From a virus: a DNA stretch of 36,469 nt. The notes under the pieces are model-generated. The model was not told where the DNA came from and did not search any database. It worked only from the letters and a program-made list of their open reading frames with translations. Location: positions 1-36,469 of IMG/VR virus record IMGVR_UViG_3300025138_000132, one strand, 5' to 3'. The position numbers and the translations under genes were made by a program. Positions 6,096-30,970 of this stretch are shown piece by piece; positions within the stretch are counted from its first letter, which is position 1, and each line of letters opens with the position of its first letter.

Positions 6096-8363
6096 ATGAA
6101 CCATAATCCAACAATCGCAAAACTACTTGCTAAAGAAAATGTTACTGTTCAACATGGTAACTATCATACCGCTTGGTTTGATATTAAAAACAGAGTACTC
6201 GGTCTTCCTATCTGGAAAGATATGGGTAAAGATGTATACGATCTTTTAGTTGGTCATGAAATTGGACATGCTTTATATACTCCTTTCGAAGGCTGGCATG
6301 ATTCTCCAGAAAAGCTGGAAGGTTGCCCTAGATCTTATATCAATGTAATTGAAGATGCTAGAATTGAAAAGTTTGTTAGATCTGATTATCCTGGTCTTAT
6401 TAGACCAATGGCTAATGGATATAAAATTCTTTTAGAAACTGGATTCTTTTCTGATGTAGATAATATCAATTGGAATGAAGTAAAGCTTATCGATAAGATT
6501 AATCTTAAAGCTAAGTTACAAAATCTAATTGAAGTTCCTTTTAATTCAGAAGAGCAAGTATACTTTGACAGAGCTTTTACAACTATTACATTTGATGAAG
6601 TTGTAGAATTATGTAGAGACATATTAGCTTACACACAAGAAAACCAACCAGAATTACTAACTCCGCCACCTGCTTCGGATGACGATCAAGACCTTGGTAA
6701 TAATGAGAATGATGATTTACCACAAGGGCATGATGACGTACAAGCACCAGGAGAAGATAATGAAACAACAAATGAAAAAGATTCTGAATCAAGGAACGAA
6801 AACTCAGAAGAAAATTCAGAAGATTCAGACGAGAATTCAACAAGTTCAGAAGCAGAAGAAAGCGCTAAAGATAAAGATATTCCAGCTGGAGATACAGATA
6901 AACAAAAACAAACTCCAGATGCTGATGAATCGCTTACAGATAATTTCTATAGAAATGCAGAAAGAGACTTAATTGATTTAGATGAAGATGGCAGTCAAAC
7001 ATTATATGTAAATGGTCCTTCAAAAGAAATCATTAATGATGTAGTAGTACCTTATAAAAAACTAGCAGAATACAGAGAAAGAATGAGAACTAAAAGATTT
7101 GCTTTTCCTGAGTATGAAGAAAAAGGTGATTTTGCAGCTCAATACGAGATCGTTAAAAAGATGTATACACAAAAAATGAAAGACGTAAAAGTTTCTATTA
7201 GACCTGCAGTTAAAGAGTTCGAACAAAGAAAAGCTGCTCAAAGATGGCAAAAAGCTTCTACTGCTAAAACTGGAATGCTTAACGTAAATAAGCTTCATGC
7301 TTATAAAACTGATGATGATATATTTCTAAGAGCTACTAAACTAGCTGATAGTAAAAATCATGGAATGATGATGATGATCGATTATTCAGGTTCTATGTAT
7401 ACAACATTAGGACATGTATTAGATCAACTTATTCATTTAGTTGCTTTCTGTAAAGCAGTTCAAATTCCATTTGAGGTATACGGATTTACATCAGTAAATA
7501 CTAGAGCTAAATACATCAGAGATATGCATATTGATGGTGATATATCAATGGCTGATTGTTGTTTACCACAACTAATTAGTTCAGATCTTAATAAAACAGA
7601 CTATACAGAAGCTTTATTTCAGCTATACCTCAGACATGTATGTATGACAGATTTAAAGAACTATGGAGAAGATGACGAAAATGGTTTAAGCTGGAGATTT
7701 AAGATGGCTCATGATGACTTTATGGCAACTTCAGAAAAATTAGGTTCTACACCTCTTAATCAAGCTCTTGTATTAGCTCACACATTAATTAAAAAGTTTA
7801 AAGCTAAAAACGCTGTCGAAAAAATGAACTTTGTAGTTCTTTCAGATGGTGATTCAAATAGATTGAATAAAGAGTCAACGATGGATCATGAACTGTATAC
7901 AGAAAGTAACTGGTATGGTAGCCGCAATGTAATTGCAATTATTGAGAAAAAGAAAGTCGTTCTTAAAGATCTAGGAAGAAGAGGAACTAAAGATCTTTTA
8001 GCTAGTCTTCAAAAAAGATATGGATGTACAACTTTAGGTTTCTTTGTATCTAGCGATAATCATGATTGGAGATCAAAAGTCGGAGAAGTTAATAATAATG
8101 ATTACAGATATGGATCAGACTTCTACAAAGATGCGAGCAATATGTATAGAAAAGACAAAGTCGCTCATTATCAAAATGTTCTTGGGTACGACGAGTTCTA
8201 CTTAGTAAAAGGCCAGAAGCTAGCAACTCAATCTGATACTCAAATGGACAATCTTGGAAATGACGCATCGAAAGGTCAGATTGGAGCAGCATTTAAAAAG
8301 AAAGCTAAATCAAAGAAGGCCAATAAAGTCCTATTAACTAAGTTCGGAATAGCTGTAGCTTAG
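6096..8363 (+). CDS. CobT-like protein: HExxH metallopeptidase-like N-terminus plus VWA domain
   Basis: A 755-residue protein. HEIGH at about residues 54-58 is a zinc-metalloprotease signature, and a conserved VIEDARIEK follows. A low-complexity acidic Ser/Glu/Asp/Asn linker spans about residues 195-280. The C-terminal half has a von Willebrand A domain with the MIDAS motif DYSGSMYT near 429-436 and later LSDGDSN. Such proteins in marine T4-like phages are often labelled CobT or peptidase. The next gene encodes a MoxR/CobS-type AAA+ ATPase; AAA+ and VWA pairs typically remodel or metal-load target enzymes. Nothing else in the window concerns cobalamin, so the CobT name should not be read as a B12 role. 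AAAGGAG precedes the ATG. Confidence 0.8.
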   Translation: MNHNPTIAKLLAKENVTVQHGNYHTAWFDIKNRVLGLPIWKDMGKDVYDLLVGHEIGHALYTPFEGWHDSPEKLEGCPRSYINVIEDARIEKFVRSDYPGLIRPMANGYKILLETGFFSDVDNINWNEVKLIDKINLKAKLQNLIEVPFNSEEQVYFDRAFTTITFDEVVELCRDILAYTQENQPELLTPPPASDDDQDLGNNENDDLPQGHDDVQAPGEDNETTNEKDSESRNENSEENSEDSDENSTSSEAEESAKDKDIPAGDTDKQKQTPDADESLTDNFYRNAERDLIDLDEDGSQTLYVNGPSKEIINDVVVPYKKLAEYRERMRTKRFAFPEYEEKGDFAAQYEIVKKMYTQKMKDVKVSIRPAVKEFEQRKAAQRWQKASTAKTGMLNVNKLHAYKTDDDIFLRATKLADSKNHGMMMMIDYSGSMYTTLGHVLDQLIHLVAFCKAVQIPFEVYGFTSVNTRAKYIRDMHIDGDISMADCCLPQLISSDLNKTDYTEALFQLYLRHVCMTDLKNYGEDDENGLSWRFKMAHDDFMATSEKLGSTPLNQALVLAHTLIKKFKAKNAVEKMNFVVLSDGDSNRLNKESTMDHELYTESNWYGSRNVIAIIEKKKVVLKDLGRRGTKDLLASLQKRYGCTTLGFFVSSDNHDWRSKVGEVNNNDYRYGSDFYKDASNMYRKDKVAHYQNVLGYDEFYLVKGQKLATQSDTQMDNLGNDASKGQIGAAFKKKAKSKKANKVLLTKFGIAVA

Positions 8364-8381
8364 AACTTATAGGAATATGTA

Positions 8382-8444
8382 TATAAAAAGTGATAAAAGT
8401 GCTAATTATTTTCACCAAAAGTGAAATTAATCGTTTACATTTGC
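8382..8444 (+). repeat. 63-bp upstream regulatory repeat, copy 2
   Basis: Identical to 5983-6045, including the palindrome (8410-8426) and the -35 box. It precedes the AAA+ gene just as copy 1 precedes the VWA gene. Confidence 0.85.
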
Positions 8445-8462
8445 TTAGAACTATGGTATAAT
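8434..8462 (+). promoter_or_regulatory. Sigma70-type promoter P3 for the MoxR-like gene and gene 45
   Basis: TTTACA at 8434-8439, 17-bp spacer, TATAAT at 8457-8462 with GG before and ATA after. Expected start near 8469, giving a leader of about 50 nt with AAGGAG near the ATG at 8521. Confidence 0.85.
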
Positions 8463-8520
8463 ATACATATAACTTGATAAAAAAGTGATATAAAAAAGGG
8501 AATAAGGAGCCCACTACATT

Positions 8521-9702
8521 ATGAAAAAATCAACACAAATAATCTTACAGGAACTTGCTAAAAGGTTCCCAGATAAAAAAGAGTTCAGGAAAAGCGAAGT
8601 AGAAGATACTGCGCTAGATCTTGGTTATACTGGAAAAGACTATGGAGTCTTAGTTTCAGCAGAGCACAGGATCAGACGTGGAGTCTTTAACTTACAAGCT
8701 CTTGTAGAAGAGTACTCTCCAACTCCTGATTTCAGTCAGCAAGTTGCTCAAATACCAGCTCAAGGAATAGCTATGGCGCCACAATCAGTTGTAAATACTG
8801 AAAAAACTTACGCTCAAATCGATCCAACATTTGTACCATGGGGTGCATTTTCTGATATTAAAAGAGTTATTACTTCTGAAATGTTCTACCCTGTATATGT
8901 TTCTGGTCTATCTGGAAACGGTAAAACTTTTATGGTAGAACAAGCATGTGCTAAACTTGGTAGAGAATTCATTAGAGTTCAGATTAATCCTGAAACTGAT
9001 GAAGATGATTTACTAGGTGGATTCAGACTTGTTAATGGAGAAACTGTTTTCTCTAAAGGTCCGGTTCTTAAAGCTATGGAAAATGGAGCAATCCTTCTCT
9101 TAGATGAGATCGATAGAGCTACTAACAAGATCATGTGTTTACAAGGTATCTTGGAAGGTAAGCCAGTACTAGTCAAAAAGACTGGTGAAGTTGTTTCTCC
9201 TACAAAAGGTTTTAACGTAATTGCTACTGCAAATACTAAAGGTAAAGGTTCAGAAGACGGCAGATTTACTGCAGCTTCTATCATTGATGATGCTTTCCTT
9301 GAAAGGTTTACTATAGCTATCGATCAACCATTTGCTTCAGCTGGTGTTGAAAAGAAAATTCTTCTTAACCACTTTGCAAAGTTTACTGAAATGGACGATG
9401 ATGATGGAACAAGCATCGAGTTTACTGATAAACTTATTGCTTGGGCTGATATTATCAGAAAAACATTCTATGATGATGGAGTCGATGAAGTTATTTCAAC
9501 AAGAAGGCTTTGCCACATTGCTCAAACTTACTCTATATTTCAAGATAGAATGAAAGCAATTAATTTATGTATTTCTAGATTTGATGATGATACTAAAGAA
9601 GCGTTCTTAGATCTTTATACTAAAATCGACGCGGATGTTAACGCATTCAATCAACCTGAAGTTGAAGAAGTCGCAGATCAGGAGGACGATATTGACTACT
9701 AA
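8521..9702 (+). CDS. MoxR/CobS-type AAA+ ATPase
   Basis: A 393-residue protein. Residues 1-100 form a separate, probably DNA- or partner-binding helical domain. The AAA+ core starts with Walker A SGNGKT near 132-137, Walker B LLLDEIDRA near 194-202, then a sensor-like NVIATANTKGKGSEDGRF and a late R-finger region (STRRL). The C-terminus is very acidic (EVADQEDDIDY). It is the likely motor for the HExxH/VWA protein upstream, with which it shares a duplicated promoter region. CobS in cobaltochelatase is a relative, but a B12 role is not supported by context. The start is set by AAGGAG upstream of the ATG. Confidence 0.85.
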   Translation: MKKSTQIILQELAKRFPDKKEFRKSEVEDTALDLGYTGKDYGVLVSAEHRIRRGVFNLQALVEEYSPTPDFSQQVAQIPAQGIAMAPQSVVNTEKTYAQIDPTFVPWGAFSDIKRVITSEMFYPVYVSGLSGNGKTFMVEQACAKLGREFIRVQINPETDEDDLLGGFRLVNGETVFSKGPVLKAMENGAILLLDEIDRATNKIMCLQGILEGKPVLVKKTGEVVSPTKGFNVIATANTKGKGSEDGRFTAASIIDDAFLERFTIAIDQPFASAGVEKKILLNHFAKFTEMDDDDGTSIEFTDKLIAWADIIRKTFYDDGVDEVISTRRLCHIAQTYSIFQDRMKAINLCISRFDDDTKEAFLDLYTKIDADVNAFNQPEVEEVADQEDDIDY

Positions 9703-19525: not shown

Positions 19526-19861
19526 ATGAAAGAAAGTTTAAAAGTGTTACAAGAATGTGCAGAAATGCAAACAAAAAAATCTCAAGATTATCAAAGTCAT
19601 GAGTCGACAGTACTTCAAGCGATGCATTATCGCAGAGGTATCGATACAATTCATGATATCTTAATCGGCAAGATGCAGAGAGCGACTTCAATAATTGAAT
19701 CAGGTAACGAACCTAATTATGAATCGCTAGAAGATACCTACAAAGATATGGTTAACTATGCAAGTTTTGCAGTATCATATATTCGTGGTAAAATGGAAGG
19801 ACAAGATCCTGAACGAGACATGTTTAATAAAAGGAAAATTGATGTATCAGAACACGACTAA
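19526..19861 (+). CDS. DUF1599 / nucleotide modification-associated domain 1 protein
   Basis: A 111-residue helical protein. KKSQDYQSHE near the N-terminus, then DILIGKMQRATSIIE and YKDMVNYASFAV fit the DUF1599 pattern (K..DY, K..R, D...Y), a MazG-like helical family named for its association with DNA base-modification gene clusters. A nucleotide-pyrophosphatase-like role is plausible but unproven. The mRNA from P7 should start one base before the ATG. It overlaps the dCMP hydroxymethylase gene by 20 bp. Confidence 0.65.
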   Translation: MKESLKVLQECAEMQTKKSQDYQSHESTVLQAMHYRRGIDTIHDILIGKMQRATSIIESGNEPNYESLEDTYKDMVNYASFAVSYIRGKMEGQDPERDMFNKRKIDVSEHD

Positions 19862-20525
19862 AGATATTGCAGAAATCTTTGTAAATGCTCTTGAAAATAA
19901 AGAGTTTACAATGGATAAAACTGGCTGTAAAACAATTGAAATAATTGGTGCTAATTTTATCGCAGATAAGCCAGCAATATTTGGTAAGCCAAACTATGAA
20001 TATATCGATAAAGAAATCGATTGGTACGAATCTGAATCAACTAATATTAATGATATATATGGTGATGAAAGAGAACCACCTGAAGCATGGAAGTATTCAG
20101 CAGATCCTCATGGAAATATTAATTCTAATTATGGTAAGCTTATATATTCACAACAATATTATAATCAATATGCGTGCGTAGTAGAAGAGTTATGTGATAA
20201 TCCAGATTCCCGTAGAGCATCAATGATATATCAAAGACCAAGTATATGGACTGAATATTATCAAAATGGTAAATCAGATTTTATTTGTACAAATGCAGCA
20301 ACTTATTATATTCGCGACGGCCAAGTACATTCAGTAGTTCAAATGAGATCTAATGATGTAGTATTTGGATATCGTAACGATTATGCTTGGCAAGAATATG
20401 TATTAAAATCTTTAGTTCATGATTTAGAAAAAGAAATGTATTTTGGTAGTCTTGAAGTAGGTAACATCTTCTGGCAAGTACAAAATTTACATGTTTATGA
20501 AAGACATTTTGATTTGGTTAAATAA
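19842..20525 (+). CDS. 42: dCMP hydroxymethylase (gp42 type)
   Basis: From the ATG at 19842 (AAGGA upstream) the protein has 227 residues (T4 gp42: 246). It follows T4 gp42 closely: DKTGCKTIEIIGANF, NPDSRRASMIYQRPS, FICTNAATYYIRDG with catalytic C149 (T4 C148), and MRSNDVVFGYRNDYAWQ with D180 (T4 D179). That Asp replaces the Asn of thymidylate synthases and selects cytosine, so the product should be 5-hydroxymethyl-dCMP made with methylene-tetrahydrofolate. The C-terminus is about 20 residues shorter than in T4. It implies that the phage DNA carries 5-hydroxymethylcytosine or a derivative. Followed immediately by dCMP deaminase. Confidence 0.92.
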   Translation: MYQNTTKDIAEIFVNALENKEFTMDKTGCKTIEIIGANFIADKPAIFGKPNYEYIDKEIDWYESESTNINDIYGDEREPPEAWKYSADPHGNINSNYGKLIYSQQYYNQYACVVEELCDNPDSRRASMIYQRPSIWTEYYQNGKSDFICTNAATYYIRDGQVHSVVQMRSNDVVFGYRNDYAWQEYVLKSLVHDLEKEMYFGSLEVGNIFWQVQNLHVYERHFDLVK

Positions 20526-20972
20526 ATGAACAAATGGGATCAAAGATATTTAGGCTTAGCTAAAGAAATAGCTGGCTGGTCTAAAGATCCAAGTACGCAA
20601 GTTGGCGCGATTGCGGTATCTGATATGGGTGGAGTTATTGCTCAAGGCTATAATGGGTTTCCTCGAGGAATCGAAGATAACGAATATAGACTAGCCGATA
20701 AAGAATCTAAATACAGATATGTAGTGCATGCTGAAATGAATTGTATATATAACGCAGCTTATCAAGGCTCATGTCTTGTAGGCTCAACAATATATGTACA
20801 TGGATTGCCAGTATGTAATGAATGCGCAAAAGGAATAATTCAATCAGGTATAATTAGAGTAGTATCGCCGAAAATAAAAGACGGGACTATTATTCCAATT
20901 AAATGGAAACAATCATTATATACAACGCTTGAATTATTTGAAGAAGTCGGAATCGACTATGATTTCGTCTAG
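20526..20972 (+). CDS. cd: dCMP deaminase
   Basis: A 148-residue zinc deaminase. The HAE zinc/proton-transfer motif is in VVHAEMNCIYNA (near residue 69) and the two zinc cysteines are in LPVCNECAKGII (near 97-100). The N-terminal SKDPSTQVGAI is characteristic. It converts dCMP to dUMP, feeding ThyX (30305) with substrate for dTMP. The start abuts the gene 42 stop. Shorter than T4 Cd (193 aa). Confidence 0.93.
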   Translation: MNKWDQRYLGLAKEIAGWSKDPSTQVGAIAVSDMGGVIAQGYNGFPRGIEDNEYRLADKESKYRYVVHAEMNCIYNAAYQGSCLVGSTIYVHGLPVCNECAKGIIQSGIIRVVSPKIKDGTIIPIKWKQSLYTTLELFEEVGIDYDFV

Positions 20973-20980
20973 TATAAATA
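20973..20980 (+). promoter_or_regulatory. T4-type late promoter TATAAATA (L3)
   Basis: A perfect octamer that begins right after the deaminase stop; expected start near 20987. Drives the inositol-phosphate synthase and probably the modification genes behind it. Confidence 0.75.
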
Positions 20981-20982
20981 TA

Positions 20983-21029
20983 TTATAGAGTGAGCTACTC
21001 TGGCCTCCAGCCAAATCTACTCACTATAA
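20983..21029 (+). other. 5' leader hairpin of the inositol-phosphate synthase transcript
   Basis: TTATAG (20983-20988), bulged AG, TGAG (20991-20994) pair with CTCA and CTATAA (21020-21029); an inner CTGG/CCAG stem lies at 21000-21010. The predicted transcript starts within the outer stem. Confidence 0.55.
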
Positions 21030-21058
21030 TAAACTGATATAAAAGGAGGAAATAACTT

Positions 21059-22339
21059 ATGTCAAAAATAAATATCGCCATCGCAGGCGTAGGCAATTGT
21101 TCATCAGCACTCGTGCAAGGTGTTCAATATTATAAAGAAAACCCAGAAGATACTATTGGTCTAATGTTTCAAGACATTGGTGGTTATTCAGCTTCGAACT
21201 TTAATTTCGTAGTTGGATTTGATGTAGATTCGCGTAAAGTTGGTAAAAGACTAAACACTGCAATCTATGCAAAGCCAAATTGTAATATGGAAGTATATCC
21301 TGAAGGTCATGATATGAGCTGTATTACTAATGAATCAACTGTATATAGATCACCAACACTTGATGGCATTGCGCCACATATGCATGATCTAGACGAAAAC
21401 GTTTCATTCTTAGAAGATACAGAAACTGATGCTATTACAGCAACTCAGTATCGTAAAATTCTTAAAGAAAGTAAAGTTGATGTATTACTCAATTACATGC
21501 CAGTAGGTTCTGAAGAAGCTGCTAGATGGCATATTGAAAATGCTATTCGTGCAGGAATTCATATTGTTAATTGTATGCCAACTTACATCTCAACTAAAGA
21601 TGCTATGGACTTAGAACAACTAGCAATCGATAATGGTGTTACTATTGTTGGTTCAGATATGCGTTCTGATTATGGAGCTTCTCGTTTATCTGAAGTACTA
21701 CAAGGATCTATTATGGATTCTGGTTTATTAGTTACTCAGCACATACAAGAGAATAAAGCGTGTGGAGCGACTCAAGGAGATATGCGTAGAACAGGACGTA
21801 CTGCTAACACAGATTTCTTGAATATGGCTACTAAAGACCGTCTAAAGAATAAGCATATTTCGAAAGAAAATGTACTTAATGGTCAAGCTGTAGTACGTGG
21901 TAAAGATATCGCTGGTCTTACAATGTATGCTGGTCCATCTCTTACTGTTTTTCAGAAACCAGGTGATGAGTATATTGGATCAGATAATAAAATCGCTAAT
22001 ATCGATATGGTATTTTGGGGTTGGGCAGGAGCTCGTTATGAACTAACTGCTCGTCTATCCGTTCAAGATTCTCCAAATAGCGCTGGTATCGTATATGATG
22101 CTATTCGATTTTGTAAGGTTGCTTCTGAAATGGGAATTGTTGGCTACTTACGTGGTCCATCAGCATGGTCACAAAAGACTCCACCAGAACAACTTAAAAC
22201 AGCAGATGCTAAATTTGAATGTGATGCATTAGCTCGTAGAGTTTTAACTGATAAAACAACTCCACAACTTCAACAAAATAAACCAAAGGTAGAAGATCTA
22301 ACTTATACATTCCAATCAGGCGAGAATGACTATGCGTGA
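21059..22339 (+). CDS. Myo-inositol-1-phosphate synthase (MIPS)
   Basis: A 426-residue protein. The N-terminal Rossmann motif INIAIAGVGNCSSALVQG binds NAD. VLLNYMPVGSEEAARWH, then GIHIVNCMPTY, GVTIVGSDMRSDYGASRLSE and later NSAGIVYDAIRFCK are MIPS motifs of the bacterial type. The enzyme isomerises glucose-6-phosphate to inositol-1(3)-phosphate. It is well expressed by design: late promoter L3, a structured leader and AAAGGAGG before the ATG. In context it may supply inositol phosphate or an inositol moiety for DNA modification, but a lipid or osmolyte role is possible. The stop overlaps the HAD gene. Confidence 0.9.
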   Translation: MSKINIAIAGVGNCSSALVQGVQYYKENPEDTIGLMFQDIGGYSASNFNFVVGFDVDSRKVGKRLNTAIYAKPNCNMEVYPEGHDMSCITNESTVYRSPTLDGIAPHMHDLDENVSFLEDTETDAITATQYRKILKESKVDVLLNYMPVGSEEAARWHIENAIRAGIHIVNCMPTYISTKDAMDLEQLAIDNGVTIVGSDMRSDYGASRLSEVLQGSIMDSGLLVTQHIQENKACGATQGDMRRTGRTANTDFLNMATKDRLKNKHISKENVLNGQAVVRGKDIAGLTMYAGPSLTVFQKPGDEYIGSDNKIANIDMVFWGWAGARYELTARLSVQDSPNSAGIVYDAIRFCKVASEMGIVGYLRGPSAWSQKTPPEQLKTADAKFECDALARRVLTDKTTPQLQQNKPKVEDLTYTFQSGENDYA

Positions 22340-22718
22340 TCAAATAAGAATTAATACTTTTGACATTGATGGCGTAATAGATTTTGGTGAAGATTTTACA
22401 GGCGTAAGACCTAGTTATGGTGATATTATCATAACTGGGCGGCCGATCTACGAATTAAAAAAGACTCAAGAGATGCTTATTTCTAGAGGTATAGATAATA
22501 TAGTATATTGTAATCCTCTTTCAAGAGATGACATTAGATACAATAGGAATACCTCAGGTCAATTTAAATCTGGGATAATTACTACATTAAAAAAAATAGG
22601 CTATGACATTGCAATGCATTTTGAGGATGATCCAATTCAGATCAAAGAAATTAGAAAAGATCATCCAGACCTTAATATTATACATTTGAAGCGAGAAGAT
22701 GGGATACTCGAATACTAA
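22326..22718 (+). CDS. HAD-superfamily phosphatase-like protein
   Basis: A 130-residue protein with all HAD motifs: NTFDIDGVIDF (motif I, DxDG), IIITGRP (motif II), a Lys in GQFKSGI (motif III) and HFEDDPIQI (motif IV). It has only a minimal core without a large cap, like small 5'-nucleotidase/phosphatase members. Its start lies in the end of the MIPS gene (14-bp overlap), so it may dephosphorylate inositol phosphate, or a modified nucleotide; substrate is inference. ATG at 22326 precedes another ATG at 22332. Confidence 0.8.
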   Translation: MTMRDQIRINTFDIDGVIDFGEDFTGVRPSYGDIIITGRPIYELKKTQEMLISRGIDNIVYCNPLSRDDIRYNRNTSGQFKSGIITTLKKIGYDIAMHFEDDPIQIKEIRKDHPDLNIIHLKREDGILEY

Positions 22719-23772
22719 ATACTTATACGACTGGAATACATACGATACGGAATTAATGAAGGACTTTAATTGGTTCCTTTATAAAGTTAATCAAAGAGCT
22801 TGCATTCAGCAAGGCTTTATATCTGAAAAATACGAAGCTGTAAATCGGCATGGAGAAACTGACTTTGGCTTAGGCGAAGATGTAGAATATTTCCATCCAA
22901 CAATTACTCTTGATGATCGTATGAGATTCATTGGTACTCAAATTGCTTCTCATCCAATGAGTTTGACTAACATTGTCGGTAATACAATTATATCTCATTT
23001 CTATGGAGCAAGAGGAGTTCATTTTCTAGCTTCAGGTCAAGATGGAGACTTTGTCGACTTTGATAGAATTGCTGATAAAGATAATGATTATAAAGCTTTT
23101 ATTAAAGGTAATTTAGATAAAGCTACAAAAAATAAGCAACCAATATGGGGTACTACAGAATTACATACCTCGATTCAAACGTCAGCAAGAAACTTTTGTC
23201 GGGAATACTATAATCAGCCAGATAGAAAGTTTCATGCATTTGACGTATGTGAATGGGTTGCTTCGTTTAGAGATACAAAGATAATCGAAGGAATGTTAAA
23301 CTGTAATAATATGGAACAAGTGTATACACTTCTCCGTACGTTGCCTGGCATTGGAGAGTATTATGGATTTCATTGCGCAGCTTCTACATCAGTTTTACCT
23401 CAAATGAAATATCACCATGATCAAAGATTTGTATCTCCAGGACCTGGTGCTGTATATACAATAAAATTAATGTGGCCAAATGCTCCAAAGAAAGCGTATG
23501 CTGATTCTATTTATTTTTTAAGAGAAAATTCAGATGAAATTGGACTTACAGCTAATGTTGATTTCGACAGTAATGCATTTAATATCAAACTAAGAGACGG
23601 AAGTTCTTTATTTTCTGAAGAACAAAATACTCTAAAGTACTATGGAACAGAAGTACTTTGTTGTCAGTTTGGTGTATATCTACAAATACGAGATGACGAA
23701 AAAGCATGCGCTCGTAGGCAAGTAGCAAGAGCTAAGACAACAAACACACAATCATTATCGGAGTTTATGTAA
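22699..23772 (+). CDS. aGPT-PPlase / amino-acid:DNA-transferase-like protein
   Basis: A 357-residue protein. A helix-hairpin-helix-like LPGIGEYYGFHCAAST near residues 214-229 is followed by HHDQRFVSPGPGAVYTIK near 241-258. This pairing (hairpin G-x-G, then D..w/f...GPGA) is the pattern I know from alpha-glutamyl/putrescinyl-thymine pyrophosphorylase-like proteins and the helical domain of 5-hmdU DNA kinases, enzymes of phage thymidine hypermodification. No P-loop kinase domain is fused, which fits the transferase-like clades. Here it sits with a cytosine hydroxymethylase, so it may act on modified cytosine. Assignment is by pattern. It overlaps the HAD gene by 20 bp. Confidence 0.6.
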   Translation: MGYSNTKYLYDWNTYDTELMKDFNWFLYKVNQRACIQQGFISEKYEAVNRHGETDFGLGEDVEYFHPTITLDDRMRFIGTQIASHPMSLTNIVGNTIISHFYGARGVHFLASGQDGDFVDFDRIADKDNDYKAFIKGNLDKATKNKQPIWGTTELHTSIQTSARNFCREYYNQPDRKFHAFDVCEWVASFRDTKIIEGMLNCNNMEQVYTLLRTLPGIGEYYGFHCAASTSVLPQMKYHHDQRFVSPGPGAVYTIKLMWPNAPKKAYADSIYFLRENSDEIGLTANVDFDSNAFNIKLRDGSSLFSEEQNTLKYYGTEVLCCQFGVYLQIRDDEKACARRQVARAKTTNTQSLSEFM

Positions 23773-24494
23773 TGGAATTAAGAGAATATAAAGGCGTTCT
23801 TCATCGAAAAGGAAATAGAACAGATAGAAACATGATCAACGATTGTAGAAATAACTACGAAGATTTTAGATTTTTCCCTGGGTCAGTAGTAGTCGATTTC
23901 GGAGCAAACATCGGAGGATTTGCTCATATGTGTAAGAATGGAAACGTAGATGAATATATTGGGTATGAAGCTGATCCAGAAAATTTTGAGATTCTAGCTA
24001 AGAATTTTCCAAGTGAAAAGGGTATTATTCATAGAGCTGCAGTATCTCATTTAGATGATGAGACATTAACATTTTATAGAACTCCTACAGATCAAGGAAC
24101 ATGCTCAGGATCTGTAACTCCTAATTATCGTTCAAAGAAAAGAAGAACATTAAGATATGAAGTAACTAATTATAATATAGATAAAGTACTCGATGAGCAT
24201 AGACCAACGCATTTAAAGATGGATATTGAAGGAACAGAAGCGCATTGGTTAGAACAGAACAATGGTATATTACCGAGATACATAGAAGAATTTGCACTAG
24301 AATTACATAATAAATCAAACGTTTACAAATTCATGGAAATGTGGTATAATAATATAATAAAGGATTTTAAGATAGTAAGAGCACGTGCAGATTATGGATT
24401 TGAAAATGATAACTTCTGGGAATTTCCAGAGCTTGAGATTGCAGGAAGCGGTTCTCTTTTTGGTGTAGATATATTCATGAGAAGAAGAAAATGA
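23772..24494 (+). CDS. FkbM-family SAM-dependent methyltransferase
   Basis: A 240-residue Class I methyltransferase of the FkbM type: SVVVDFGANIGGFA (SAM-binding motif I), YIGYEADPENFEIL (acidic residue of motif II), then THLKMDIEGTEAHWL and a C-terminal strand pair ending GVDIFMRRRK. FkbM enzymes usually O-methylate sugars or similar hydroxyl groups. In this cluster it may decorate a sugar or inositol attached to DNA; that is inference. The stop of the previous gene overlaps its ATG by one base. A sigma70-type promoter lies inside it at 24322-24350. Confidence 0.85.
   Translation: MELREYKGVLHRKGNRTDRNMINDCRNNYEDFRFFPGSVVVDFGANIGGFAHMCKNGNVDEYIGYEADPENFEILAKNFPSEKGIIHRAAVSHLDDETLTFYRTPTDQGTCSGSVTPNYRSKKRRTLRYEVTNYNIDKVLDEHRPTHLKMDIEGTEAHWLEQNNGILPRYIEEFALELHNKSNVYKFMEMWYNNIIKDFKIVRARADYGFENDNFWEFPELEIAGSGSLFGVDIFMRRRK
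24322..24350 (+). promoter_or_regulatory. Sigma70-type promoter P8, inside the FkbM gene
   Basis: TTTACA at 24322-24327, 17-bp spacer, TATAAT at 24345-24350 with GTGG before. It matches the intergenic copies although it must also encode protein. It would express the following genes up to the C5-methyltransferase early. Confidence 0.75.
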
Positions 24495-24754: not shown

Positions 24755-24909
24755 GATACTATTGGAAATTATGGGCTAAGTCCCTAGGAGAAAAAGCATC
24801 AGATGATCCAAAAGAAGCTGATATAGTTGCTCTTATGAGAACAGTTATTGTAATAGTAAATTTTGGAACTTGCTTTTTTATTATATCAGGTATACTGAGG
24901 CATTGGTAA
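24748..24909 (+). CDS. Small single-pass membrane protein (53 aa)
   Basis: A short gene starting MVRYYWKLWAKSLGEK, with a hydrophobic stretch VIVIVNFGTCFFIISGIL near residues 32-49. Likely membrane-inserted; function unknown. It overlaps the previous stop by 7 bp, and its TAA overlaps the next ATG (TAATG). Confidence 0.55.
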   Translation: MVRYYWKLWAKSLGEKASDDPKEADIVALMRTVIVIVNFGTCFFIISGILRHW

Positions 24910-25913
24910 TGAAGAATATTATTAATTGTCCTTTCATACCAATTGCAAAAAGAGCAGCATCCCATAGAGGAGCACAAGGAGTAATATATGGCGATCAAAT
25001 ACAACAAAAATACGGACACTGCGATGTCAATTATGGCGGAACAATTAGCGACCACAATGACTATGATAGTCTTTGGGTTTATCATGGCAGTGACTGGAGC
25101 GGTGGTCTCAATATGTTTGGTGGTGTCTATGGTTTTCCATATGTTCAAAACACTGTTAACTTTTCTAGATTTACCGGAAAGGTTTATTCAATTGGAATCG
25201 ATTTTCCACCGTACCATGAAATGGTTCAAGGAAAACTTGACTCCGCTAAGAAAGAAGTTCAGCCGGAATGGTTGGAAGTAGACATTGAAAATTTAAAAAG
25301 GATGTATGATACTGCAGAAACAGTTATATTTCCAAACTTAACTAAAAAATTAATCGTAGGAGATTCACATTCAATCTGTATGTATAGACCAGGTTGGACT
25401 GTAAATAGTGTTCCGTTTAAGACATTGAATGGAGCATTAAACGATGGATTAGAATCATATATCAACGTAGAGACTGAAGGTTCAGTAGAATTCTATTTTG
25501 GTAATATAGATATAAGACATCATGTATGTAGACTGGAAGGCGGTTGGGAGAAGAACGTAAAAGATCTAGCTGAACGATATGTAACGGAGGTGAAGAACTT
25601 ATCTGTTCCAGGTCGTATTTACGAACTTCTACCCATCGAGAACGAATCAAGAAAGCTTCCTCAGTCAGGATACTATAAAGGACAACCATTTTATGGAAGT
25701 TGGGATGAAAGAAACAGAGCAAGAAAACTCTTTAATGAGATTATTCATGACTCTGGATTAGGAATCGAATGGACTAAATATTTATTAAACAAAGACGGAG
25801 AACTAGATTTTGCTTATATGGAAAAGCCTAAATCAATTCATTTGTCAAGAGAATTCTATCCATATTGGAACGGTATAGAAAACAACAATAGCTTGGAGGA
25901 GTTTTTCGGATGA
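24909..25913 (+). CDS. SGNH/GDSL-like protein of the modification cluster
   Basis: From the ATG at 24909 the protein has 334 residues. The central KKLIVGDSHSICMYRPGW (GDSHS at 151-155) and YFGNIDIRHHVCR (near 196-208) resemble the nucleophile block and the fG-ID-R-H block of SGNH hydrolases. The N-terminal 90 residues are Gly/Asp/Tyr-rich and read like a separate domain (YGFPYVQN). SGNH enzymes are esterases or acyltransferases; an acyl or sugar-linked substrate is only a guess. AGGAG motifs near the 3' end serve the next gene, which overlaps by 4 bp. Confidence 0.5.
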   Translation: MKNIINCPFIPIAKRAASHRGAQGVIYGDQIQQKYGHCDVNYGGTISDHNDYDSLWVYHGSDWSGGLNMFGGVYGFPYVQNTVNFSRFTGKVYSIGIDFPPYHEMVQGKLDSAKKEVQPEWLEVDIENLKRMYDTAETVIFPNLTKKLIVGDSHSICMYRPGWTVNSVPFKTLNGALNDGLESYINVETEGSVEFYFGNIDIRHHVCRLEGGWEKNVKDLAERYVTEVKNLSVPGRIYELLPIENESRKLPQSGYYKGQPFYGSWDERNRARKLFNEIIHDSGLGIEWTKYLLNKDGELDFAYMEKPKSIHLSREFYPYWNGIENNNSLEEFFG

Positions 25914-27097
25914 AATATGCGAGTATAATACCACTTATAGGTGGAGAAACAATAGCAATGGAGAATGTTTTTGGTAAAAGACCAGAATATATTCTCACTT
26001 TTGAGGGATTTCAGGCTAATGAAGAACACCTTTTACACCGTTATAACAATGAGGTCCCATATTTGAACCTCTCAGAGGGCCACAGTTACACAGAAAAAGT
26101 TGATGTGATTAATACTGTATGCCCATGTGCAGGGCTAAGCTCACTTAGTCCATCAGCAGCAAGTAATAATCCTATGAATGATTGGATGTATAAAGCTGCA
26201 GAATATGTACTTGGTGAAGTAAAGCCAAAGGTATTCTGGGGAGAAAACGCTCCTAGATTAGCATCTAAAATGGGAGAACCTGTAGTTAAAAGACTAAGAA
26301 AGATTGGCGAAGAGAATGGTTATTCATTTTCTATATTTAAAACTAAATCCATACTTCATGGATTAAGCCAAGTAAGAGATAGAACATTCTATTTCTTTTG
26401 GGAAGGAGATCACGTTCCTTTATTTGATTATATATTAGAAAGACCAGGTAATATTGCTGATGACATACGTAATGTAGAACGTAGAAAAGACGATCCAATG
26501 AGCCAGATACTATGTAATGAAGCAAAGCCTTCAGATAATCCTTACTATCGATATGTATTAGAAGTATTAGAAGGTGGTATAACACATGAAGAGTTTGCAG
26601 CTAAAATAGAAAAAACAACTAATCCAATGGATTATATAGAAGAAAGAACTAATTATAAGAAAGTAGCTGAATGGATGAGAGAAAATGGATACGATAACGT
26701 AGCTAAAAAATGTGATAGACAATATCATAAGCTTAAAGCTGGCGGTAATATAATGCGTAAAACTACAGAAATACCTAAAGACAAGATAGGCGCTTTTGTA
26801 GGACACATGCCTACATGTTTAACTCATCCTGATGAAGATAGATACCTTACTGTACGTGAAGCTTTATCATTAATGAAACTACCAGATGATTTTATCTTAC
26901 TAAATCCTAAACGTTCTTTAAATCATATCTGCCAAAACGTACCAGTTACTACAGCTGAGCATCCTGCTCGTATGATAAAGAAATACTTTGATAATCAATT
27001 AGATATGATTGAGACTAAATTCTTAGTACAAGATAACAAAAAAAGATCCTATAAAAGTGAAAATAATCCTTTACAATTGGACCAATTTATGGTATAA
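25910..27097 (+). CDS. C5-cytosine methyltransferase homologue
   Basis: A 395-residue protein. The C5-MTase motifs are in order: motif I-like PLIGGETIAMENV, motif IV TVCPCAGLSS with the catalytic Cys at 73, motif VI GENAP (E111), motif VIII LSQVRDRTF, and near the C-terminus motif IX YLTVREALSLMKLPDDF and motif X-like NHICQNVPVTTAEHPA. The target-recognition region is long and charged. It should act on cytosine C5 or be a repurposed relative. With a hydroxymethylase making hmC upstream, its real reaction is unclear. The stop lies inside the -10 box of promoter P9. Confidence 0.82.
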   Translation: MKYASIIPLIGGETIAMENVFGKRPEYILTFEGFQANEEHLLHRYNNEVPYLNLSEGHSYTEKVDVINTVCPCAGLSSLSPSAASNNPMNDWMYKAAEYVLGEVKPKVFWGENAPRLASKMGEPVVKRLRKIGEENGYSFSIFKTKSILHGLSQVRDRTFYFFWEGDHVPLFDYILERPGNIADDIRNVERRKDDPMSQILCNEAKPSDNPYYRYVLEVLEGGITHEEFAAKIEKTTNPMDYIEERTNYKKVAEWMRENGYDNVAKKCDRQYHKLKAGGNIMRKTTEIPKDKIGAFVGHMPTCLTHPDEDRYLTVREALSLMKLPDDFILLNPKRSLNHICQNVPVTTAEHPARMIKKYFDNQLDMIETKFLVQDNKKRSYKSENNPLQLDQFMV

Positions 27098-30304: not shown

Positions 30305-30970
30305 ATGATGGACGTGAAACTTATATCATACTCGCAGCCAGCTGAAAACTTGGATATCCCACCAGATATACTTCAGCTGGTTGCATTCTGTGCTAGAGTA
30401 TCTAACCCAGAGAATCAACTAAATACTGAAACTGCAGAAGGCTTAGTTAAGTATCTAATCAAACATAAACATTGGTCGCCACTTGAAATGGCTTCTTGTT
30501 GTATGGAGATTACTACTACTAGAGATATAGCAAGACAGCTACTTAGACACAGGTCTTTTTCTTTTCAAGAATTTAGTCAAAGATATGCTAATCCTATTGA
30601 AGATTTAGAATTTACTACAAGAGAAGCGAGACTACAAGATAATAAAAACAGACAAAACTCCATTGATATTCCTATGGAAGACTCAATTAATTATGTATGG
30701 GAATCATACCAAGAAGTAATTATTGAACGCTGTAGGAAAGCATATGAATGGGCGATTGAAGCCGGAATCGCTAAAGAGCAGGCTAGAGCAGTTTTACCTG
30801 AAGGTTTAACTGTAAGTAAGTTATATGTAAACGGAACAATTCGTTCATGGATACACTATATTGAATTGAGATCTGATAATGGAACGCAGAAAGAGCATAT
30901 GGAAATAGCCAAAAAATGCGCTGAAGCAATTGATTACATTTTTCCTTATAATGAAATATTTGAAAAATAA
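30305..30970 (+). CDS. thyX: ThyX flavin-dependent thymidylate synthase
   Basis: A 221-residue protein with the ThyX signature RHRSFSFQEFSQRYA (RHRx7S type), KHWSPLEMASCCMEI before it and REQ-like ARAVLPEGLTVSKLYVNGTIRSWIHYIELR after it. It methylates dUMP to dTMP with FAD and NADPH. With dCMP deaminase it provides dTMP, whereas T4 uses a ThyA-type enzyme. AAGGAG precedes the ATG; a second ATG is at 30308. It ends just ahead of the -35 of P10. Confidence 0.95.
   Translation: MMDVKLISYSQPAENLDIPPDILQLVAFCARVSNPENQLNTETAEGLVKYLIKHKHWSPLEMASCCMEITTTRDIARQLLRHRSFSFQEFSQRYANPIEDLEFTTREARLQDNKNRQNSIDIPMEDSINYVWESYQEVIIERCRKAYEWAIEAGIAKEQARAVLPEGLTVSKLYVNGTIRSWIHYIELRSDNGTQKEHMEIAKKCAEAIDYIFPYNEIFEK

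Follow-up and report, generated by a model that had tools for sequence, protein, structure and literature searches.

A phage myo-inositol-phosphate synthase paired with a minimal HAD phosphatase: a candidate supplier of an inositol-derived DNA decoration, preceded by a structured leader RNA

Described decoration systems and the layout of the locus

Hypermodification of phage DNA blocks restriction and CRISPR, and the decorations known from phage DNA are mainly sugars, amino acids, polyamines and deazaguanines. The closest described systems are the glycosylation of hydroxymethylcytosine in T4 and RB69, which combines gp42 with a glucosyl- or arabinosyltransferase (PMC6024577, PMC8056088), thymidine hypermodification in ViI, M6 and PhiW-14 (5hmdU kinase, aGPT-PPlase), TET/JBP hypermodification with a TET-associated glycosyltransferase, and 7-deazaguanine modification (DpdA/QueC/QueE; PMC6884629). 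The locus compared with them here lies in a window that is the whole stretch of DNA analysed, namely the entire IMG/VR record IMGVR_UViG_3300025138_000132 (36,469 nt, probably a fragment). Its virus is classed as a T4-like phage of bacteria by UvsX, RegA and a gp42-like gene. The features of the cluster are as follows:

19842-20525, + strand: predicted dCMP hydroxymethylase (T4 gp42-like), with an inferred start; 240 bits to T4 gp42 versus 46 bits to the best thymidylate synthase
20526-20972, + strand: dCMP deaminase (PF00383, E 8.8e-19)
20973-20980, + strand: late-promoter-like octamer TATAAATA, an exact match; near chance in number and unconserved
20987-21042, + strand: structured leader RNA, by covariation and a covariance-model match (E 1.3e-5, window outside training), with P1 at 20989-20994/21020-21025, CUAC at 20995-20998, P2 at 21000-21003/21007-21010 and the AAACUGAUAUAA tail at 21031-21042
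21042-21049, + strand: Shine-Dalgarno sequence AAAGGAGG of MIPS, complementary to CCUCC of the P2 loop
21059-22339, + strand: homologue of myo-inositol-1-phosphate synthase (MIPS), 426 aa, ATG start, by Pfam and Ino1 matches
22326-22718, + strand: minimal HAD phosphatase, 130 aa, obligate partner of phage MIPS, by motifs, fold model and co-occurrence
22699-23772, + strand: HMUDK_hel-family protein without the kinase domain, candidate base-modifying transferase (PF18723, E 5.5e-12)
23772-24494, + strand: FkbM-type methyltransferase, possible O-methylation of the decoration (PF05050, E 6.4e-11)
24909-25913, + strand: SGNH/GDSL-fold protein (p347), partner of the HMUDK_hel protein, by model (pLDDT 87.5), fold matches and alignment
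25910-27097, + strand: C5-cytosine methyltransferase homologue (PF00145, E 1.1e-15)
30305-30970, + strand: ThyX (PF02511, E 2.8e-42)

The 14-bp overlap of MIPS and HAD and the ribosome-binding site ahead of MIPS, both named in the original prediction, were borne out by the coordinates above. HAD and HMUDK_hel overlap by 20 bp, HMUDK_hel and FkbM by 1 bp, and FkbM and an 87-aa ORF by 4 bp, and a translational chain from MIPS likely passes through HAD directly into two modification-type genes. Elsewhere, at 6096-9702 of the window, a 755-aa protein without a Pfam match adjoins an AAA_5/CbbQ_C ATPase, with resemblance to a MoxR-VWA-type pair.

As in T4 and RB69, hydroxymethylcytosine would be made at the nucleotide level through a gp42 homologue and the decorating polyol would be made by the phage, in the same genome region; the RB69 cluster also holds a PNK-phosphatase-like gene. 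The locus differs from both in that MIPS would make a cyclitol and no nucleotide sugar, and in that no glucosyltransferase was recognised near MIPS in the window, where the candidate transferase is the HMUDK_hel protein together with the SGNH protein. With thymidine hypermodification it shares HMUDK_hel/ADDT transferases and, in the type II loci described below, a P-loop kinase; it differs in that the acceptor in the window is probably hydroxymethylcytosine, the kinase domain is missing and the added group is probably no amino acid.

The thymidylate-synthase reading of 19842-20525 was rejected in favour of dCMP hydroxymethylase on the difference in score and on the Asp which gp42 has in place of Asn, which is kept (FGYRNDYAWQ). 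The presence of ThyX, a putative separate source of dTMP, agrees with a gp42-like gene that is no thymidylate synthase. In the HMUDK_hel protein the helical domain of 5hmdU DNA kinase (HMUDK) alone was matched, its P-loop kinase domain being unmatched, and the protein is classed as an HMUDK relative with no kinase. The HMUDK_hel and SGNH proteins form a single polypeptide in Aeromonas phages such as 44RR (phrog_17781), and because of this fusion they presumably act jointly. The model of p347 matched 7toh (Z 13.7, rmsd 2.9, 166 aligned), and the GDSH block and H311 were invariant in 19 sequences, with the block-III Asn replaced in two; judged by its model, p347 is an SGNH/GDSL-fold protein with a predicted hydrolase-type fold. 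The HMUDK_hel protein and its SGNH partner are candidates for the transferase, and none of the window's genes is proven to transfer inositol.

In Aeromonas phage 44RR2.8t (L187:5408-9388) the fused SGNH-HMUDK_hel gene is immediately preceded by a phage gene for an SSF sodium/sugar symporter. This symporter is closest to vSGLT, which marks it as an importer of a sugar or polyol; specificity for inositol could not be claimed. The layout would suit import of the decorating polyol in place of its synthesis. In Aeromonas phage 25 (L188:4776-8047) a UDP-galactopyranose mutase and a 358-aa protein adjoin the SGNH protein, which suggests a galactofuranose-based decoration. The HMUDK_hel/SGNH pair, as these layouts suggest, is fed with different polyols in different phages, and the pair alone is no proof of inositol. 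The C5-cytosine methyltransferase homologue (25910-27097) is kept in type I loci, though the phage is expected to contain hydroxymethylcytosine.

MIPS, the HAD phosphatase and their pairing

The product of 21059-22339, identified as MIPS in the original prediction, matched PF01658 (E 3.2e-7; 30.9 bits versus a cut-off of 27) and M. tuberculosis Ino1 (1gr0; E 1.7e-50, residues 3-385), which upheld the identification. The residues at the catalytic positions (K265, K269, K311, D337 and K373) match those of Ino1 in the alignment, and 190 aligned phage MIPS retain them apart from a single gap, at K373. Because these residues are conserved, conversion of glucose-6-phosphate into inositol phosphate is well supported as the predicted reaction, and the window enzyme looks active. 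Since the second-best solved relative was 6k96, a five-membered-cyclitol-phosphate synthase (E 1.9e-27), the predicted product is strictly a cyclitol phosphate, most likely myo-inositol-1-phosphate. The rank of 6k96 would suit a homologue that makes another cyclitol phosphate, for example with a five-membered ring, which the same partners would put on DNA, but by profile Ino1 scored far higher (363 versus 201 bits) and every catalytic position fits Ino1, and such a product is considered very unlikely. In the literature searched, one phage paper mentioning MIPS was found, a study of phage Ps15 in which MIPS is taken for a stray bacterial gene, classed as bacteria-like, and the queuosine genes are treated apart from it (PMC9025141).

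The call of a HAD gene at 22326-22718 also stood. Across 31 diverse homologues the motifs D13/D15, T37, K81 and D101/D102 did not vary, and a minimal HAD fold was seen in the AlphaFold model (pLDDT 93.6). The Pfam search of the window proteins gave no match for HAD, PF00459 (inositol monophosphatase) included, and the sequence search for its solved relatives returned nothing convincing. The folds nearest to the model were the 3'-phosphatase domain of T4 Pnkp and Pnkp1 (Z about 13), and the sequence similarity to Pnkp was weak (phrog_415, E 1e-6).

Among 50,697 phage records, MIPS and HAD matched an identical set of 18 (Menderavirus of Stenotrophomonas, Caulobacter phage Cr30). Cultured phages carrying the pair are Cr30, IME-SM1, Moby and Mendera, and the HAD of Mendera is an annotated ORF (L001:15365-15736). 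Pairing was counted on 127 distinct MIPS from IMG/VR or reference genomes: HAD was present in 118 of the 118 distinct loci whose contig extended more than about 200 nt beyond MIPS, and in the nine distinct loci without HAD the contig ends within 208 nt of MIPS. The HAD frame started less than 60 nt from MIPS or overlapped it in 106 of the 118. Part of the loci was retrieved with a HAD query, and those retrieved by MIPS or by the RNA pattern gave the same pairing. Among 80 cellular MIPS loci, HAD or HMUDK/SGNH genes were found in one (L237), and the leader RNA and HAD were both missing from 79. This single locus (NHBP01000004.1), binned as Planctomycetaceae bacterium TMED10, is an apparent T4-like phage fragment with a complete type I cluster and leader; by its genes it is classed as a phage contig misbinned into a planctomycete MAG.

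Because HAD is the obligate companion of MIPS and no canonical PF00459 gene was found in the sequenced parts of 20 phage records with MIPS (contigs often being fragments), a role as inositol-phosphate phosphatase is plausible. Of the proposed conversion of glucose-6-phosphate into free inositol, the step to inositol phosphate held up on the catalytic residues, and the HAD step is plausible only. HAD may also act on DNA-borne phosphate, because its nearest fold is that of the T4 polynucleotide 3'-phosphatase. Inositol phosphate itself would then be put on the base, and HAD would strip a phosphate on DNA or linked to the base, with no free inositol made. The likeness to the Pnkp domain, the gene resembling a PNK phosphatase that RB69 has in its arabinosylation cluster (PMC8056088) and the P-loop nucleotide kinase of type II loci all point this way, but fold likeness does not fix a substrate and the sequence similarity to Pnkp is weak; this order of steps is rated as rather unlikely, though of real weight.

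Modification genes beside MIPS across phages and the proposed decoration

The neighbours of 207 phage MIPS loci were scored with profiles built from those loci, and MIPS lineages, defined at 75% identity, numbered 14. Most contigs are fragments, and counts of absence apply to the sequenced part. DNA-modification markers occurred in 124 of the 127 distinct MIPS loci and in 14 of 14 lineages, and the nearest marker lay less than 1 kb from MIPS in 117 of the 127. Loci of type I, to which the window belongs, carry dCMP hydroxymethylase, dCMP deaminase, MIPS, HAD and HMUDK_hel, often with FkbM, SGNH and C5-cytosine methyltransferase. Those of type II (Cr30 and many contigs) carry Tet_JBP, ADDT amino acid:DNA transferase and P-loop nucleotide kinase 3 (Ploopntkinase3), and in some a TAGT-like or GT4 glycosyltransferase is also present. 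Those of type III (Menderavirus, L114) carry QueC, QueE, GTP cyclohydrolase and a DpdA-like protein (7-deazaguanine); no DpdA was detected in the type III locus L093.

Type II loci share Tet_JBP, ADDT and the TAGT-like or GT4 glycosyltransferase with TET/JBP hypermodification, and differ from it by the constant MIPS-HAD pair and the leader RNA and, in Cr30, by a TAGT match below the Pfam cut-off. Judged by its genes, Cr30 is a likely carrier of a TET/JBP hypermodification system, to which ADDT and a TAGT-like glycosyltransferase would belong. Menderavirus and L114 carry the 7-deazaguanine genes adjoining MIPS-HAD, whereas the described pathway is without the pair (PMC6884629).

Two observations concern single genes of these neighbourhoods. 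At L002:8706-10034 Cr30 has a gene annotated as an SNF2 repair protein; it falls into one cluster with L096:38-1402, a Tet_JBP gene (PF12851, E 5e-19). Glycosyltransferases of GT4 type lie near MIPS in three different settings (L114:8565-9893, L091:12933-14192 and L121:7578-8723); inositol compounds are substrates of MshA and PimA, both GT4 enzymes, and the glycosyltransferases near MIPS may extend the decoration.

The types are mixed on the MIPS tree. The window (I) and L022 fall with L229 (II), L075 (II) with L214 (I), and L149 (I) with L212 (II), and a single clade holds L093 (III), L089 (II) and L090 (I). Such mixing is as expected of a plug-in module that would supply one decorating group, and since the MIPS-HAD pair stays intact while its DNA-modifying partner is swapped, the pair looks like the supplier of a common decorating group.

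Of the three uses that had been proposed for the inositol (a DNA adduct, a lipid or an osmolyte), the DNA adduct is clearly favoured, because modification genes of three chemistries occur beside the pair in all 14 lineages and no CDP-alcohol phosphatidyltransferase (PF01066) was found in the sequenced parts of the 20 phage records with MIPS. The inositol-lipid route was rejected on the same search. Auxiliary metabolism unrelated to DNA, in which MIPS-HAD would make free inositol as an osmolyte or for a host-type inositol lipid or a surface glycan, would agree with the Ino1-type lipid synthesis in which the same MIPS family serves in bacterial cells, clustered in Bacteroidetes with CDP-alcohol phosphatidyltransferase (PMC9246714), and with the MIPS tree, where the phage group falls in one clade with Bacteroidota MIPS. 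It is nevertheless quite unlikely: the phosphatidyltransferase is absent from the 20 records searched, DNA-modification genes adjoin the pair in every lineage and almost never in cellular loci, and HAD and the leader are absent from 79 of the 80 cellular loci.

T4-like phages tend to hold modification genes in one region (PMC8056088), and this regional clustering could inflate the type I co-location in part, though types II and III speak against it as the full explanation. Taken to its end, the co-location would reflect only the way in which T4-like phages habitually gather accessory genes around the polymerase and uvsX, with MIPS-HAD functionally unrelated to DNA modification. Type I clusters do sit in that region, but types II and III and the divergent contigs L068, L090 and L112 keep the adjacency in other layouts, and co-location by habit is judged highly improbable.

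MIPS-HAD is probably a transferable module whose product, an inositol-derived group, is destined for a modified base of phage DNA, with a structured leader controlling the translation of MIPS. This reading builds on the observed gene identities, catalytic residues, MIPS-HAD pairing, co-location with modification genes and MIPS-restricted covarying RNA, and infers from them the MIPS product, the HAD substrate, the attachment step, the linkage and chemical identity of the group and the RNA ligand. Host glucose-6-phosphate would be converted into the inositol-derived group, either free myo-inositol or inositol phosphate trimmed later. The acceptor in the window would most likely be 5-hydroxymethylcytosine, with hmdCMP made by the dCMP hydroxymethylase and then built into DNA by polymerisation. 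Attachment of the group to the base would fall to the HMUDK_hel and SGNH proteins, and O-methylation of the decoration possibly to the FkbM enzyme. In other phages the same module would be plugged into TET/JBP plus amino acid:DNA transferase systems or into 7-deazaguanine systems. The leader would act on MIPS translation probably as a metabolite sensor.

The full picture is put forward tentatively, with somewhat less than even confidence: many T4-like and larger phages would have cyclitol-decorated DNA (e.g., inositol-substituted 5-hydroxymethylcytosine, with TET-made and 7-deazaguanine analogues), an exchangeable MIPS-HAD pair, and an undescribed riboswitch that senses inositol, inositol phosphate or a related metabolite. 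If true, this would add cyclitols to the DNA decorations as a new chemical class, and the module would be common to at least three base-modification chemistries. In the searched literature nothing was found on phage inositol together with DNA modification, an earlier mention in further papers being possible, and no chemistry for the DNA of any of these phages was found in it.

The region upstream of MIPS and its leader RNA

The perfect late promoter of the original prediction exists as the exact octamer TATAAATA at 20973-20980, and a late promoter there is possible. The window holds 12 matches to the octamer versus 8.2 expected, a number reached in 12 of 100 shuffles. Within 150 nt upstream of MIPS the octamer was found in 3 of 3 members of the window subgroup, in 4 of 45 of the neighbouring subgroup, and in no other lineage. 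With a count near chance and no conservation upstream of MIPS, the strong late expression that had been proposed was unsupported and the strong-promoter reading was rejected.

The hairpin leader that had been described was confirmed as a covarying structured RNA by comparison, whereas the single-sequence fold of the window leader was unremarkable (z -0.59); the signal is comparative, and single-sequence folding is uninformative. The conserved tail AACUGAnAUA was carried by 69 of 83 distinct sequences upstream of MIPS, and in these sequences the 5' strand of P1 is followed by CUAC, the hairpin P2 (variable), CAA and the 3' strand of P1, after which come the tail and the Shine-Dalgarno sequence. 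Twenty-two representative leaders had 16 different P1 5' strands and formed 115 Watson-Crick pairs in P1, versus at most 65 with shuffled strands (0 of 20,000 permutations reached the observed number). Four of four P1 pairs were changed on both sides in an 18-leader alignment, with 100% of P1 cells paired. Covariation over the whole structure was 0.684 versus 0.19 shuffled and at most 0.09 slid, for an alignment and structure drawn by hand and a slid control that is somewhat favourable.

With the window and Cr30 left out of training, a covariance model recovered both (E about 1e-5 and 4e-5). It gave one strong match each in 15 of 20 phage records, several of which had served in training or are close to sequences that had. 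Over 2.3 Mb of neighbourhoods, 150 descriptor matches precede MIPS versus 4 in shuffled sequence; of the 12 remaining matches, at least 3 precede a MIPS with a misplaced start and the others are compatible with chance. In the IMG/VR-wide pattern scan, stem-bearing matches occurred before MIPS only, and the stemless matches before other genes look like chance and were discarded. Most phage MIPS lineages have the leader, and no recognisable copy was found in a few (e.g., L085, L097 and L114). Rfam 15 gave no match above the gathering score in the window leader, L149, L093 or seven whole loci, and the matches returned by E-value were rejected, all being far under gathering scores. The leader RNA is the most solid new element of the locus.

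One criterion for a riboswitch is that the 5' leader of a metabolic gene has a conserved fold with covariation, as the MIPS leader does. The preQ1-I riboswitch is a small translational riboswitch with a short stem, an A-rich tail and pairing between its loop and the Shine-Dalgarno sequence. The MIPS leader is like it in architecture, with a short stem, an A-rich tail and a P2 loop often complementary to the Shine-Dalgarno sequence, and unlike it in having no Rfam match and in a loop pairing that is putative, being stronger for own than for swapped partners at p = 0.053 (swap test). The leader appears to be a translational regulator, and a metabolite sensor is more likely than a protein operator because the leader is structured and confined to one gene. 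As a riboswitch candidate, possibly one serving inositol metabolism, it would be a new structured RNA family outside Rfam 15.

Repression by RegA affects many genes and takes place at unstructured sites. A reading of the leader as the operator of RegA or another phage translational repressor, in place of a metabolite sensor, would be in keeping with the RegA gene of the window (PF01818, E 1.5e-43), with the RegA annotated in Cr30 and with the position of the conserved tail next to the ribosome-binding site, but the leader is structured and limited to one gene, and an operator of this kind is thought unlikely. Besides 20987-21042 of the window, the leader with a covarying stem and conserved AAACUGAnAUAA tail was seen before MIPS in L068, L084, L086, L093, L102, L112 and L149.
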